Assembly (NCBI GenBank): GCA_015522645.1 | Contig: WALV01000011.1 | Span: 1-64,000 of the forward strand | Reading direction: 5' to 3' | Source of the DNA: Candidatus Tiamatella sp. | Lineage (GTDB): Archaea; Thermoproteota; Thermoprotei_A; Sulfolobales; Acidilobaceae | DNA length: 64,000 nt | In this document: positions 485 through 58,340 of the stretch, piece after piece | How the letters are laid out: every line of letters begins with the position of its first letter | Position numbering within the stretch: the stretch's first letter is position 1 | Position numbers and translations under genes: made by a program | The notes under the pieces: generated by a model | What the model was told of the DNA's origin: nothing | The model's database searches: none | Seen by the model: the letters and a program-made list of their open reading frames with translations, nothing else

Positions 485-1051
485 ATGTACTACCTATCCA
501 GAGTCAGGAAAGTATTGAAGATACCTCCCAACATGATGTATGAAGGACGTGATATTAGAAAAGTGGCCCTGGAGCTTCTGAGAAAGGATTTCGTTGAGGG
601 ACTTGAAGGAAGAAACGATGAGGATCTAGGCATAATCCTCTCAGTAGATAACATCGATGTATTATCTCAGGGCATAATCGTTCCTGGAGATCCTAGAATA
701 TACATGGAAGTAGAATTTGATGTACTAAGCTATAAGCCAGTTTTGAATGAGATAGTCAGGGGAAAGGTTATTGATGTAAAGAACTTTGGTTTATTCGTAA
801 ATATAGGCCCAGTTGAAGGTTTAGTTCATAAGACTCAGATAATGGATGAGCCAGTAAAATATGATCCTTCGAGGAGTGCTTTCATAGGCGTAAAATCTAA
901 CAGGGTAATAGAGTTAGGCGACATTGTTAGAGCGAGGGTAGTTCAAATATCAACTAAAAGCGGCTGGATTAAAGTTGGTTTAACGATGAGACAACCTTTC
1001 CTAGGAAAGGAGGAGTGGATTGAAGCTGAAAAAGAGAAGGTGAGTAGTTAA
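485..1051 (+). CDS. rpoE1: DNA-directed RNA polymerase subunit E' (Rpo7/RpoE1)
   Basis: This 188-residue protein is the stalk subunit of archaeal RNA polymerase, equivalent to eukaryotic Rpb7. The N-terminal half carries the IPP-type tip motif (KIPPNMMYEG) and the conserved LGIILSV segment. The C-terminal half, from about residue 85, is an S1/OB RNA-binding domain (RGKVIDVKNFGLFVNIGPVEG). Its ATG is the only in-frame start that gives the normal N-terminus. It overlaps the first base of spt4 and forms the usual rpoE1-spt4 pair, so both are probably on one transcript. Confidence 0.95.
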   Translation: MYYLSRVRKVLKIPPNMMYEGRDIRKVALELLRKDFVEGLEGRNDEDLGIILSVDNIDVLSQGIIVPGDPRIYMEVEFDVLSYKPVLNEIVRGKVIDVKNFGLFVNIGPVEGLVHKTQIMDEPVKYDPSRSAFIGVKSNRVIELGDIVRARVVQISTKSGWIKVGLTMRQPFLGKEEWIEAEKEKVSS

Positions 1052-1287
1052 TGAGCTATAGACGTACACGTAAACCGATTTTTAAAGCTTGCAAGAAATG
1101 CGGCGGGTTAGTTCCTTTAGACGCTAAAAGCTGCCCTTACTGCGGCTCTACCAGTTTTACTGAGGACTGGGAGGGCATGGTTATCATAATTGACCCGGAA
1201 AAATCACTGGTTGCTAAAATGATCGACCGAGCAGATAAGCCGGGTATATATGCAATTAAGATAGGGGGAAAGGTGGCATTAAAATAA
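1051..1287 (+). CDS. spt4: Transcription elongation factor Spt4 (RpoE'')
   Basis: This 78-residue zinc protein is the partner of Spt5/NusG on elongating RNA polymerase. Two CxxC pairs (C14/C17 and C28/C31) form the zinc ribbon, followed by the DWEGMVIIIDPEKS core typical of archaeal Spt4. It starts on the last base of rpoE1. Its TAA stop at 1285-1287 overlaps an ATA codon that appears to be the start of the next gene, giving an ATAA overlap where ATGA would be the usual form. Confidence 0.95.
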   Translation: MSYRRTRKPIFKACKKCGGLVPLDAKSCPYCGSTSFTEDWEGMVIIIDPEKSLVAKMIDRADKPGIYAIKIGGKVALK

Positions 1288-1820
1288 CTAAAAAATGCCT
1301 CGGAATCCCAGAGAACATTAGAATAGATTTCGCGGTTCCTAGAGGTATAATAGTTTCCAGTAGAATAAGTGAGTGGATAAAATTAAACCTTAAAGATAGA
1401 GTCATAGTTTCTGTGGGTGATGTTGTCACATCCTCTATAATATCAAATGGCATGAAACCCTACTTGTCTATAATTGACAGGAAGACTAGGCGAAATGACG
1501 TATCTCCTAAAATACCCGGTGTTCTGTTGGAGCAATGTAATGTGCAGAAAGTAGCTAATCCTTCAGGGAAAATTTCAATGGATGCCGTTGATATTCTATG
1601 CAGATTACTTGAAGAATTTAATGCATCTAAATGCCATGTAGTTATTGTGGATGGAGAGGAAGACATGCTCGCGTTACCAGCATTGTCATGCGCACCTGAG
1701 GGATCCGTGGTTGTATACGGTGTTCCAGAAGTTGGCATAGCGGTTTTCTATGTCGATAACTCTATAAGATATCTGGCATCCAATAGATTATTGTATCTAA
1801 AACCTGTAGAATGCATGTAA
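1284..1820 (+). CDS. GTP-dependent dephospho-CoA kinase (DUF359), apparent ATA start
   Basis: Family COG1909 performs the last step of archaeal CoA synthesis, phosphorylating dephospho-CoA with GTP. Seen here are the VSVGDVVTSSI motif, IDRKTRR, VVIVDGEEDMLALPA and VVYGVPEVGIAV, all in family order. The first canonical start in frame is GTG 1413, but the 43 codons before it are open and match the family N-terminus (IPENIRIDFAVPRGIIV lines up with the LPPELR...PFGRVY region as I remember it). The frame opens only after a TAA at 1257 and contains no ATG, GTG or TTG before 1413. GGTGG at 1272-1276 lies 7 bases before ATA 1284, which is therefore the best start (178 residues). Confidence 0.85.
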   Translation: MTKKCLGIPENIRIDFAVPRGIIVSSRISEWIKLNLKDRVIVSVGDVVTSSIISNGMKPYLSIIDRKTRRNDVSPKIPGVLLEQCNVQKVANPSGKISMDAVDILCRLLEEFNASKCHVVIVDGEEDMLALPALSCAPEGSVVVYGVPEVGIAVFYVDNSIRYLASNRLLYLKPVECM

Positions 1821-2244: not shown

Positions 2245-2424
2245 ATGGCATGGGTTCACAAATTATATGAGTACGACTACAATAGTGGAACTATAAGGCT
2301 CAAGAACAAAAAATGCCCTAGATGCGGTAGCATAATGGGTTATCATAAGAAACCCGTGGAGAGGTGGCACTGTGGAAAATGCGGTTATACAGAGTTTATA
2401 CAATCTCCCCCGAGAAAGAAATAG
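2245..2424 (+). CDS. rps27ae: 30S ribosomal protein S27Ae
   Basis: This short gene encodes 59 residues. The protein begins [19 protein letters not shown] and carries a four-cysteine zinc ribbon (C24, C27, C43, C46) with the conserved [16 protein letters not shown] region. It is the ribosomal part of eukaryotic ubiquitin-S27a fusions. GGGTGG upstream of ATG 2245 serves as ribosome binding site. Its 3' end overlaps the annotated GTG start of kae1 by about 50 bases. Confidence 0.95.
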
Positions 2425-3424: not shown

Positions 3425-4140
3425 AAGAACTGGCAGGGCTCCTTACCTCAGGTAAAATGCTTTCAATGGGGGCTGAAGCAGCTGTCTATCTAACTAGTTT
3501 CATGGGAGAGAATTTTGTGGTAAAGTATAGGTTTCCCAAAAAGTACATTCATCCATTACTTGCAGAAGAGCTGATAGTAAAAAGGACTAAAAGAGAAGCG
3601 AGAGTTTTACTGAATACCAGGTTAAACGGTTTATGTGTACCACGACTCTTTTTCACTATGCTATCAAAAGGGATCCTTGTTATGGAAAAAATTAATGGAT
3701 CAAGACTAGACGAGTTAATAGGGAAAGTATATCCTGGAGAAGAGCAAAGTACAACCTTTTCCAGGATATATTATAATATAGGAGTGGTTCTAGGGAAACT
3801 GCATTCTATGAATATTATACACGGCGACTTCTCTGTATCTAATTTAATGATAAAGGATGAAGGATTAACAGAGTTATGTATTATTGACTTTGGTTTAAGT
3901 GACTTCTCGAACGACCCAGAAGATCGTGCCATGGATTTACGCATACTCTTCAAGTCTATGGAATCGAGGTTCCCGCGGTACCTACCTTCCTTTAGAGATA
4001 AAGTCATTCAAGGCTATAAGGCTGGAATCACCGGCTTTAACTTTAATAGCGTGATTCAACGTTTACGTGAGATGGAGTTGAGGGGAAGATATGTTAAAGA
4101 AAGGAGGAGGAAACATAAAACTAGCGTTCATAACATCTAA
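3412..4140 (+). CDS. bud32: KEOPS complex kinase/ATPase Bud32
   Basis: This 242-residue member of the small atypical RIO-like kinase family switches Kae1 activity. Visible motifs are the glycine-poor loop GAEAAVYLT, the lysine in FVVKYRFPKKY, the HGDFSVSNL catalytic loop and the metal-binding DFGLSD. The C-terminus is basic (RYVKERRRKHKT), as expected for a tRNA-contacting protein. It overlaps kae1 by 13 bases and the ITPase gene by about 50 bases at its 3' end, so the three are translationally linked. Confidence 0.93.
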   Translation: MDALEELAGLLTSGKMLSMGAEAAVYLTSFMGENFVVKYRFPKKYIHPLLAEELIVKRTKREARVLLNTRLNGLCVPRLFFTMLSKGILVMEKINGSRLDELIGKVYPGEEQSTTFSRIYYNIGVVLGKLHSMNIIHGDFSVSNLMIKDEGLTELCIIDFGLSDFSNDPEDRAMDLRILFKSMESRFPRYLPSFRDKVIQGYKAGITGFNFNSVIQRLREMELRGRYVKERRRKHKTSVHNI

Positions 4141-19796: not shown

Positions 19797-19881
19797 AACG
19801 CGTTAAATGCTCTAATCAGCCATTGGTTTCATCTATTTTTTAACTAAAAAAGTTAGCGATTGTAGGTGAACTGTTTTACCG

Positions 19882-20427
19882 GTGCTAGTGACTACCTCTA
19901 GAGAACCTAGCAATAGAACTAGAAGTTTCATTAATGAATTAGTGTCTACAGTCCCGGTTTTCGTAAAATACAACCGTGGAAAGGCCACTTTGGAGGAATT
20001 ACTTGATAATGCTATATCAAGTAAAACTAGTTATATTCTAGTAGTACATGAGAAAAAGGGAAACCCCGGTCTCATAAAGGTATATCATGTAAATGTTATA
20101 AAACATGTATTAGATGAATGGTTTAACTTGATTCTGAAGGGTATTACTCTTTATAAAGAAAAAACCGGATCAAAGCCTAAGCCTTATGACGGTAAGTACT
20201 GTATTTCGTATTCGGTTGGAACAGAGTTATTAGCAGATTTAATTAACCGTTTAACAGGTTATACCTTTTGTTTAAAGAGAAGTGATAAAGAAGTGTCTAG
20301 ATACATTGAAATTGATACTATGAATGAATTGTTTGTCATTAGGTTTTATCGTCAAACTGGGACTATAGCAGGCCCGATCATTAGGGTGAGGAAGATTGTT
20401 GATAGAAGCAATAATAGAAGTTACTGA
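19882..20427 (+). CDS. Brix domain protein, Imp4-like rRNA processing factor
   Basis: A 181-residue single-Brix-domain protein. The N-terminal LVTTSREPSNRTRSFINEL is the family signature, followed by FVKYNRGKATLEEL and the VHEKKGNPGLIKVYH strand pair. Archaeal members are thought to assist rRNA folding and processing. GTG 19882 is used; AGGTGA lies somewhat far upstream, so a slightly earlier start is not excluded. It overlaps the next Pcc1 gene by 32 bases. Confidence 0.88.
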   Translation: MLVTTSREPSNRTRSFINELVSTVPVFVKYNRGKATLEELLDNAISSKTSYILVVHEKKGNPGLIKVYHVNVIKHVLDEWFNLILKGITLYKEKTGSKPKPYDGKYCISYSVGTELLADLINRLTGYTFCLKRSDKEVSRYIEIDTMNELFVIRFYRQTGTIAGPIIRVRKIVDRSNNRSY

Positions 20428-52684: not shown

Positions 52685-53290
52685 TCACTGTTGTCCCATT
52701 TTAAATTTTCCAAGTATGTTTTCTACACTCCTTCTTATTATGGAATAAACTGTATCAATATCTAGCCCTTCCGTATTTATGACTATGTCAAATTTCTCTA
52801 GGATATTTGTATCTACACCATAGAGAGCCATGAACCGCATATACTGGCTTTCCTCCCTAGCCAATGTTTCTCTTAATATATCCAGGAATTCACGTGTTTC
52901 TCTCCCCGCTATCCTCTTTATTCTAGTATCTAGAGGCGCGTTAATGTATATAGATAAGTCAGCTAAGTCTGCTAGTACGAAGGCTGATAAGTGGCCTTCA
53001 ATTACTCCTCCCTTGTTGACAGCTCTTTCCAGAGTTGTTCTATCAATTAATACGTCTATAGAAGAGTTTCTCTCAGCAATCTGGCTGAGTTCGATTAGAC
53101 TGATACCTTTAGACTTAGCTATTTCACGGAAAATTTGTCCGGCAGAATAATAGGGTAGAGAAAGATCGGAGGATAGCCTTTTTGCATATGTAGTTTTCCC
53201 GCTTCCTGGTGGGCCGCTTATAACTATTACTGGATTCCTGCTTCTCCTCTCACTTTCATTCTCAGTAACTCTGTCAAGCACTCGTGGCAA
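52685..53290 (-). CDS. cmk: Cytidylate kinase, archaeal type
   Basis: Phosphorylates CMP and dCMP. The P-loop is VISGPPGSGKTTYAKRL, followed by YYSAGQIFREIAKSKGISL, DVLIDRTT and GHLSAFVLADLADLSIYI. The canonical starts TTG 53290 and GTG 53281 lie inside rpl34e and add about 20 residues absent from relatives. ATA 53227 overlaps the rpl34e stop (TAATA) and gives the expected N-terminus immediately before VISGPP, so it may be the real start. The 3' end is close to L14e. Confidence 0.9.
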   Translation of the reverse strand: MPRVLDRVTENESERRSRNPVIVISGPPGSGKTTYAKRLSSDLSLPYYSAGQIFREIAKSKGISLIELSQIAERNSSIDVLIDRTTLERAVNKGGVIEGHLSAFVLADLADLSIYINAPLDTRIKRIAGRETREFLDILRETLAREESQYMRFMALYGVDTNILEKFDIVINTEGLDIDTVYSIIRRSVENILGKFKMGQQ

Positions 53291-56445: not shown

Positions 56446-58200
56446 TCAACCACCATCAAGCTTCTTCAGAAGGTTCTTCTTGTAAAGCTCTTCAATAAAA
56501 TGTTTGATAGTGCATAATATGTCATTGTCAGAAATACCATAATATCCCCTTAAGTATCTCTCTATATTCCTAGTATTCCAACCCATCCCCAGTAGTCTAT
56601 AAAACTCTAGGAGCAGTGTTTTTATCAGAGGATCATAGTATTTCTCCAAGTATTCGTAATCCAAATCCTCTGCGAATTTATTTGGTATGTATTTCAAAGA
56701 GGTTTCATAGCTTTCTTCTTTAAAACATTCATTTCTCTCATGATATGTAAATATGTTTGTGAAGGAATTTAGCAGGGTAATTATCCTGTCTAACTGCTCT
56801 TCAACAAGTTTTCTTAGATTGGGATCATGTAATTCCTCAGTTTTGATGAGGTTGTATCTTTGGATAAGGGACTCTATTCCATTTCTCACTAAAGATTCCT
56901 TTCGTTTCATCGTGTCTTCCAGAGAGTGGAATAAGTATTTCCATATGATTTTTGAAAGACTATCTCCTTCTTCGCTGGTTAAACCCGAAATGTAGTCTAG
57001 AGATTTCAATGCCGATTGGCCTACTATTTGAAGTATTTGAGGAGATATTTTATCGGGGCTGTCCTCGTTTGTATGGTAGTACCGGTCTGGCCATTGATTA
57101 ATCATAACGGCAGGAATACTATATGAGGCCAATACGTCATGGTCACTGCCAAACTCGAACAATACTCGGGTGCTAAGTGGTATATAAGGTAGTTTTGATG
57201 AGCCGCCAAAGCTTTTGTTATCACGTGCTTCATTCTCGAGGAAATAGCTTACAATAGCCTCTTCTATACTCGGAGAAGAGGGGCTAGATTCTATTAGATT
57301 TAGCGACCCCCCATTTAATCGTGGATCGCCACCTACCATGTCTAAGTTTAAAGCGAATATGGTGTTCTCTGGGTTGATGAAGCCTGTTTCTAACGCGTAG
57401 AAGGTACCTAGATACTCGGGGGTCCATACTATTTGTATGTTATGATTCGGTTGCCAGTTTTCCCTCATTTTTTCATTGAATTGTTCTGCTAGCCATAGAA
57501 GAGTTGCTGACCCGCTAGCGTTATCGTTCGAGCCGGGTTTAGGATGGCATAAGTGTGCTATTACAAGTATTTTTGAATCGGTTTTCCCTGGGATTTCTGT
57601 TTTAATTATTGGGATATTATAGTTGTCATTGTTTACTTCAATGAATAATTCCAGTTTGGGTTCTTTCTTGGCGAGCTTTTTAGCTAAGATCCTTGAAGCC
57701 GTCATAACCGGAACAAACAGCTGTCTCCTTAGAGCTGACGGAATCCGAATATATGGGAACCCGGTGTCCGTCCTCTTCTCATCACTGGTATAGTAAATTA
57801 TTCCAGAAAGATCGTTCAATTTTTCTCCACATTTTCTGTATAGTATGGATGGATATTTACTTGTTAAAAGGATACCACCAGGCTCCCCGCATTCCCTCCT
57901 TTCGTCGGGTATTATTTTACCTTCATATATCTCTCCATTTGTCGATTTGGAGTATGCTGCAACTAATGTAGGAATATTCCCATAATTCCACTTTGAATTA
58001 TCCCATTTTATCCATGCATCCTGAACAGTCCATGCAGGAGGTTTTGTAAAATAGTCCGTATCTTCTAGATGCACGGTTTCCACATTCATATTCAATTGCG
58101 TAAGATGGCTCTTAACGAATTCAGATGCTTTTAAGTACCCTTCTGACCCAGGTATCCTATGGTAGTTGCTGATTCTACCGATAAGTCTGTGAATACGGAT
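56446..58200 (-). CDS. M28-like zinc aminopeptidase with non-canonical start
   Basis: About 584 residues. The zinc-site pattern is HLCHPKPGSNDNASGSATLL, WTPEYLGTFYAL, NLDMVGGD and RYYHTNEDSPD. The first canonical start is TTG 58095, but the frame is open back to TGA at 58218-58216 and encodes clear family sequence including NYHRIPGSEGYLKASEFV. That extension has no ATG, GTG or TTG; ATC 58212, ATC 58200 and ATT 58194 are the possible starts, or a frameshift separates it from ATG 58225. The end coordinate given (58200) is provisional. The C-terminal 200 residues are helical and of unknown role. Confidence 0.75.
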   Translation of the reverse strand: MRIHRLIGRISNYHRIPGSEGYLKASEFVKSHLTQLNMNVETVHLEDTDYFTKPPAWTVQDAWIKWDNSKWNYGNIPTLVAAYSKSTNGEIYEGKIIPDERRECGEPGGILLTSKYPSILYRKCGEKLNDLSGIIYYTSDEKRTDTGFPYIRIPSALRRQLFVPVMTASRILAKKLAKKEPKLELFIEVNNDNYNIPIIKTEIPGKTDSKILVIAHLCHPKPGSNDNASGSATLLWLAEQFNEKMRENWQPNHNIQIVWTPEYLGTFYALETGFINPENTIFALNLDMVGGDPRLNGGSLNLIESSPSSPSIEEAIVSYFLENEARDNKSFGGSSKLPYIPLSTRVLFEFGSDHDVLASYSIPAVMINQWPDRYYHTNEDSPDKISPQILQIVGQSALKSLDYISGLTSEEGDSLSKIIWKYLFHSLEDTMKRKESLVRNGIESLIQRYNLIKTEELHDPNLRKLVEEQLDRIITLLNSFTNIFTYHERNECFKEESYETSLKYIPNKFAEDLDYEYLEKYYDPLIKTLLLEFYRLLGMGWNTRNIERYLRGYYGISDNDILCTIKHFIEELYKKNLLKKLDGG

Positions 58201-58340
58201 TCCTTCTAAGATAGGTCACCGTCATAAATATGTATGTAATGAAGTATTTGTGTGTTTGATGTCTATAGATGTGCCTCGTTTCGGGTTGATAATTAGCTGA
58301 TAACTAGATTATAATACTCTGCTTGATAGTTTAGCATATA

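Follow-up and report, generated by a model that had tools for sequence, protein, structure and literature searches.

Comparison of the sequences led us to conclude, with considerable confidence, that translation of the dephospho-CoA kinase gene in this archaeon begins at an AUA codon at position 1284, and that a strong Shine-Dalgarno (SD) site acting together with the ordinary initiator tRNA is the best explanation for it. AUA 1284 was preferred because no canonical codon precedes GTG 1413, the intervening stretch is constrained as coding DNA, the SD spacing fits, ATA is conserved, a sister genus has ATG at the same place, and near-cognate codons are in excess behind SD sites. The gene lies in the window, the 64-kb stretch that was analyzed and that forms the first part of a 78-kb contig; the assembly (G000) comprises 1.54 Mb in 71 contigs and is 98% complete. 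The genus sample consisted of three species (G000, G001, and G002), and G012 belongs to a sister genus. The order at the locus is rpoE-like S1 protein, spt4, DUF359 kinase, rps24e, rps27ae, kae1, bud32, and ITPase, some of these names being presumptive. Elsewhere in the assembly, an ATPase-like gene (L050, G000:C20, 12540-12959, minus strand) apparently lies in two frames, by a frameshift or an assembly error.

In a Pfam search, the DUF359 frame matched PF04019 at an E value of 1.8e-29 over positions 1 to 120 of 126. The protein scored 84.7 bits against the NCBIfam equivalog profile NF041125, below its cut-off of 300, so that the name dephospho-CoA kinase rests on the family and not on a close equivalog. 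By family membership, the product is a predicted GTP-dependent dephospho-CoA kinase, an enzyme of coenzyme A synthesis. The features at the locus are as follows.

1051..1287, plus strand: spt4, transcription elongation factor Spt4 (Pfam PF06093, E 3e-15); its stop codon TAA 1285-1287 overlaps the proposed kinase start codon.
1272..1276, plus strand: Shine-Dalgarno site GGTGG, 7 nt from ATA 1284 (8 nt when counted from GGTG); conserved as AAGGTGGT in G001 and G002.
1284..1820, plus strand: predicted GTP-dependent dephospho-CoA kinase (DUF359, PF04019), 178 codons from ATA.
1284..1286, plus strand: proposed AUA start codon with ATAA junction; ATA in G001, GTA in G002, ATG in G012.
1413..1415, plus strand: GTG, the earliest canonical codon of the frame; it lies inside the gene and is rejected as the start; the 42 codons 5' of it are under purifying selection.

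The kinase frame (1260-1820, 186 codons) opens just past TAA 1257-1259, and the only in-frame codons near the expected start that come into question are ATT 1278-1280 and ATA 1284-1286, as the sequence-only reading had described. The same reading had counted 43 codons from the opening of the frame to the first ATG, GTG, or TTG, which is GTG 1413; that number holds when the count is made from ATA 1284, while the opening lies 51 codons away. Since no canonical codon occurs earlier in the frame, GTG 1413 might be taken for the true start, with the 43 codons before it untranslated, and we regard this as scarcely credible. Between G000 and G001, codons 1287-1412 gave a dN of 0.297 and a dS of 1.147 (ratio, 0.26), similar in kind to the remaining part of the gene (dN 0.192, dS 0.971), which argues that the stretch 5' of GTG evolves as translated coding DNA. 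Moreover, position 5 of NF041125, a Thermococcales kinase profile, aligns with residue 8 numbered from ATA, where the family profiles begin to match. The place where the family profile starts is consistent with ATA, and a start at GTG 1413 would cost the protein this conserved N-terminal part. Finally, GTG 1413 is not preceded by an SD site (score, 8).

SD spacing was then calibrated on genes having a single canonical codon near the opening of the frame, in which the SD sites of this organism proved strong. Among 30 such canonical starts preceded by AGGTG in G000, the gap was 7 nt in 15 genes, 8 nt in 7, and 9 nt in 3. At the kinase gene, AGGTG occupies 1271-1275, 8 nt from ATA 1284 (the second commonest gap) and 2 nt from ATT 1278. 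The previously noted placement of GGTGG at 7 nt 5' of ATA, and the overlap of that ATA with the spt4 stop codon as ATAA, were both confirmed in the sequence; the overlap (ATAA 1284-1287) is in the −1 frame relative to spt4.

In bacteria, no non-AUG start is better known than AUU, and the ATT at 1278 is shared by G001, G002, and G012; both points speak for initiation at AUU 1278 instead of AUA 1284. However, a gap of 2 nt was absent among the 30 calibrating starts, and G012 has its ATG in the column of 1284 and not in that of 1278. The conservation of ATT is explained by its position inside the spt4 coding frame, in the part that encodes the LK end. We consider a start at AUU 1278 very unlikely.

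The junction in G001 (AAGGTGGTATTAAAATAA) retains the same SD site, gap, ATA, and ATAA, with changed flanks and an orthologous protein 67% identical to that of G000. In G002 (AAGGTGGTATTGAAGTAG), the same SD site is followed by GTA at the site and by ATG two codons downstream. In G012 (AAGGTAGTATTAAAATGATG), ATG stands in the ATA column and ATGA replaces ATAA. An alignment of orthologues, to see whether ATG occupies 1284 in close relatives, had been proposed as a check; the sister genus has ATG exactly there, which favors AUA. The comparison also bears on whether ATA could be a sequencing error for ATG, or the gene a decayed one. The assembly is indeed fragmented into its 71 contigs, but the independent assembly of G001 shows the same ATA and ATAA, and the kinase gene is intact and constrained, leaving only a slight chance for either.

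The kinase could also lack a start of its own, being produced as an Spt4-kinase fusion by −1 slippage where spt4 ends in A_AAA_UAA. Relative to spt4, the kinase lies in the −1 frame, and tRNA-Lys could re-pair from AAA to AAA at 1281-1284. Nevertheless, the site contains no X XXY YYZ heptamer, and no slippery site is conserved, the AAAA being gone in G002 (GAAGTAG). Relatives carry separate ATG or TTG starts, the SD spacing would be left unexplained, and the genes for LutB-like protein, HypA, and RNase Z share the arrangement of an SD site and a near-cognate codon. Frameshifting thus appeared to us very unlikely, and the data were better accounted for by initiation at AUA 1284.

Censuses of codons behind SD sites took in 389 kb of G001 and, for G000, 860 kb out of 1.54 Mb. 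When all 796 genes in the 860 kb were pooled, ATA was found behind SD-like sites at 49 of 887 occurrences near starts and at 51 of 919 in gene interiors, whereas ATG (215/653), TTG (182/526), and GTG (79/473) were strongly enriched near starts. Behind strong SD sites in G000, TTG came close to ATG in frequency (169 versus 209). The pooled census rules out AUA as a general, organism-wide start codon: with ATA at background, AUA can be no more than a rare start.

A sharper census was restricted to genes whose first canonical codon lies at least 8 codons downstream, and it scored codons 7 to 8 nt behind a strong SD site (score of at least 13). The near-cognate set (CTG, ATA, TTA, GTA, ATT, and ATC, with AAG, ACG, and AGG left out) was chosen after the first lists had been seen. 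For this post hoc codon set, 9 of 286 near-cognate codons in G000, in nine different genes, were so placed, compared with 7 of 1352 others (odds ratio, 6.2; P = 5e-4). The corresponding counts in G001 were 7 of 131 and 3 of 568, with the kinase gene alone contributing 4 of the 10 matches. The third census compared G000 with G001 in 303 orthologue pairs, requiring a strong SD site at the same gap in both species; this strict cut-off was adopted instead of a loose one, at which the signal in the same pairs was swamped by second codons. It returned 62 canonical starts and 5 noncanonical sites, 4 of which are near-cognate (4/73 versus 1/360 for other codons, P = 0.003). These four are the kinase (ATA in both species), an M28 peptidase and a Brix-like gene (TTA in both), and C11:71703 (CTG in both). 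The sole conserved match outside the set lies at about 4134 on the minus strand of L095 (G000:C36), before a thioredoxin-like gene; its AGGTG TTTACCC...GGGTAAA inverted repeat is conserved in G001 and is possibly a regulatory hairpin or operator.

Small samples from G005 (1/153 near-cognate versus 4/514 other codons) and G051 (1/41 versus 6/492) showed no near-cognate excess, at a power so low that they do not establish a restriction of near-cognate starts to the genus.

Two further near-cognate candidates from the conserved-SD census lie in the window.

58217..58220, minus strand: SD site GGTG of the M28 peptidase gene, 7 nt before TTA 58209; SD site and spacing are the same in G001.
58207..58209, minus strand: proposed UUA start of the M28 peptidase gene (CDS 56446-58209); TTA in G000, G001, and G002.
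19864..19868, plus strand: SD site AGGTG of the gene for a Brix-like rRNA maturation protein, 7 nt before TTA 19876; SD score of 15 in both G000 and G001.
19876..19878, plus strand: UUA, candidate start codon of the Brix-like CDS, which runs to 20427; TTA conserved in G001, alternative GTG at 19882.

In G002, the frame of the M28 peptidase gene opens at a stop codon, and TTA comes immediately behind it. For the Brix-like gene, GTG follows two codons past TTA in G000, and no canonical codon occurs for 54 codons past TTA in G001.

The remaining examples lie on other contigs. The gene for a LutB-like iron-sulfur protein (G000:C8:12810) has GAGAGGTGA, a 7-nt gap, and ATA, as it does in G001; the codons flanking ATA differ between the two species, and TTG stands at the site in G009. 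RNase Z (C35:18467), which scores above the TIGR02651 cut-off in a profile search, has an SD site, a 7-nt gap, and ATA, with ATT in the same column in G001; in both species the next canonical codon comes only past the conserved LGTSAA motif. The HypA gene (C28:5780) reads AAGGTGATAAGGA CTG CAT GAG, and the CTG aligns with position 1 of the profile, while its orthologues have ATG, TTG, or GTG before the invariant His-Glu. In G051, a complete genome from the same order, both HypA copies (L217 and L233) have CTG before His-Glu, each 7 nt behind GGTG; such CUG starts may mean that the near-cognate habit is wider than the genus. Less certain candidates are CTG in C21:32091 (a NucS-like nuclease) and in C34:10150 (a CBS protein), and the ATA of C24:39888. 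The orthologue of the CBS-domain gene in G002 (L261) carries an in-frame TGA. About 1 in 100 of the examined genes would have one of these predicted near-cognate starts.

The sequence-only reading had listed kae1, ITPase, cmk, and the M28 peptidase in the window beside the kinase as similar cases and had suggested that the organism tolerates AUA initiation. Canonical starts are available to the first three.

2372..2374, plus strand: GTG available to kae1, inside rps27ae; SD site GAGAGGTGG at 5 nt; the frame is open from this GTG in all three members of the genus.
4091..4093, plus strand: ATG available to ITPase; ATG with a purine-rich SD site also in G001.
53279..53281, minus strand: GTG available to cmk; ATG there in G001 and G002, GTG in G012.

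The gene kae1 has an in-frame GTG 2372 with a strong SD site; ITPase has ATG 4091 in frame, shared with G001, and the SD site before its ATA is not conserved; and cmk has GTG 53281 in frame, with no SD site before its ATA. For kae1 and cmk, conservation of the upstream GTG or ATG is not independent proof, since the preceding gene encodes zinc-finger residues across the same nucleotides; a canonical option being present, both rank as doubtful cases and were not counted as AUA examples. The M28 peptidase did stand as a noncanonical start, although its codon is UUA and not AUA. Tolerance of AUA was likewise retained only as a rare event (the kinase, LutB-like protein, RNase Z, and probably C24:39888), not as a general start, and the evidence supports AUA use as one case of a rare but broader near-cognate use that includes CUG, UUA, and AUU.

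We propose the following mechanism. At the kinase gene, the strong SD site GGTGG (1272-1276) would place the 30S subunit at AUA 1284, and ribosomes terminating spt4 at the overlapping UAA probably also deliver 30S subunits there. The ordinary initiator tRNA (anticodon CAU) would accept AUA with a third-base mismatch and insert methionine; the SD site, here along with the overlapping upstream stop, would keep the 30S subunit in place until Met-tRNAi has accepted the mismatch. Through the same SD-driven tolerance, near-cognate codons (AUA, UUA, CUG, and AUU) could serve as starts in about 1% of the genes of the genus. We infer that the ribosome does start at AUA 1284, that the protein begins with methionine, and that such a start is less efficient than one at AUG. 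Weak near-cognate starts are expected because aIF1 of S. solfataricus disfavors noncanonical starts (PMC8211752, PMC6237735).

An absent or odd initiator tRNA was ruled out: G000 has one initiator gene of the usual archaeal type, with A1-U72, a GGG/CCC anticodon stem, and CAU. Introns interrupt many of the 46 tRNA genes of the genome, including those for Met, Gln, Thr, Ser, Cys, and Val. Loss of aIF1 was also ruled out, as the gene is present and full length; one of the searches for it used an approximate aIF1 sequence as bait only. With an ordinary initiator tRNA and aIF1 in place, no change of the machinery is visible. A bolder view, possible yet doubtful, is that the genus has a heritably relaxed start rule: given a strong SD site, third-base mismatches (AUA, UUA, and perhaps GUA) and CUG would be accepted in at least 1% of genes, and selection would maintain them as weak starts; a lineage-specific change in initiator tRNA modification or in aIF1 or aIF2 might underlie this.

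In bacteria, infC (encoding IF3) has an AUU start, and other rare native non-AUG starts occur. The kinase gene resembles the infC type: it is a native gene, and its start codon, conserved in relatives and preceded by a strong SD site, mispairs with the initiator anticodon at the third base. In contrast to infC, the host is an archaeon with aIF1 and aIF2, the codons are AUA and UUA rather than AUU, several unrelated genes are involved, and there is no sign of feedback on an initiation factor. In reviews of archaeal initiation, no starts other than AUG, GUG, and UUG are named (PMC7531240), and no archaeal AUA or UUA start was found in the literature searched, for which subscription papers were mostly out of reach. 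Archaeal GUG and UUG starts are likewise SD dependent and read by tRNA-iMet with one mismatch (PMC7531240), but that mismatch is at the first base, whereas AUA mismatches here at the third base and UUA at both the first and the third. Archaeal termination-reinitiation at ATGA (PMC10666635) has the same 4-nt overlap with the upstream stop, and the sister genus itself has ATGA; here the junction is ATAA and the start codon AUA. Eukaryotic CUG and other near-cognate starts, limited by eIF1, are similar in that acceptance is policed by e/aIF1, while placement here would be by the SD site and not by scanning.

Taken together, these results point to near-cognate initiation that is rare, SD dependent, and conserved. 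Archaeal gene callers recognize only AUG, GUG, and UUG; if AUA, UUA, and CUG do serve as conserved starts, the N termini of core genes such as those for RNase Z, HypA, and dephospho-CoA kinase would be missed or misplaced in annotations. The list of candidate genes makes the near-cognate question directly testable, and, if true, it would constitute a natural set of sites at which to test how archaeal aIF1, aIF2, and the SD site set start-codon fidelity.
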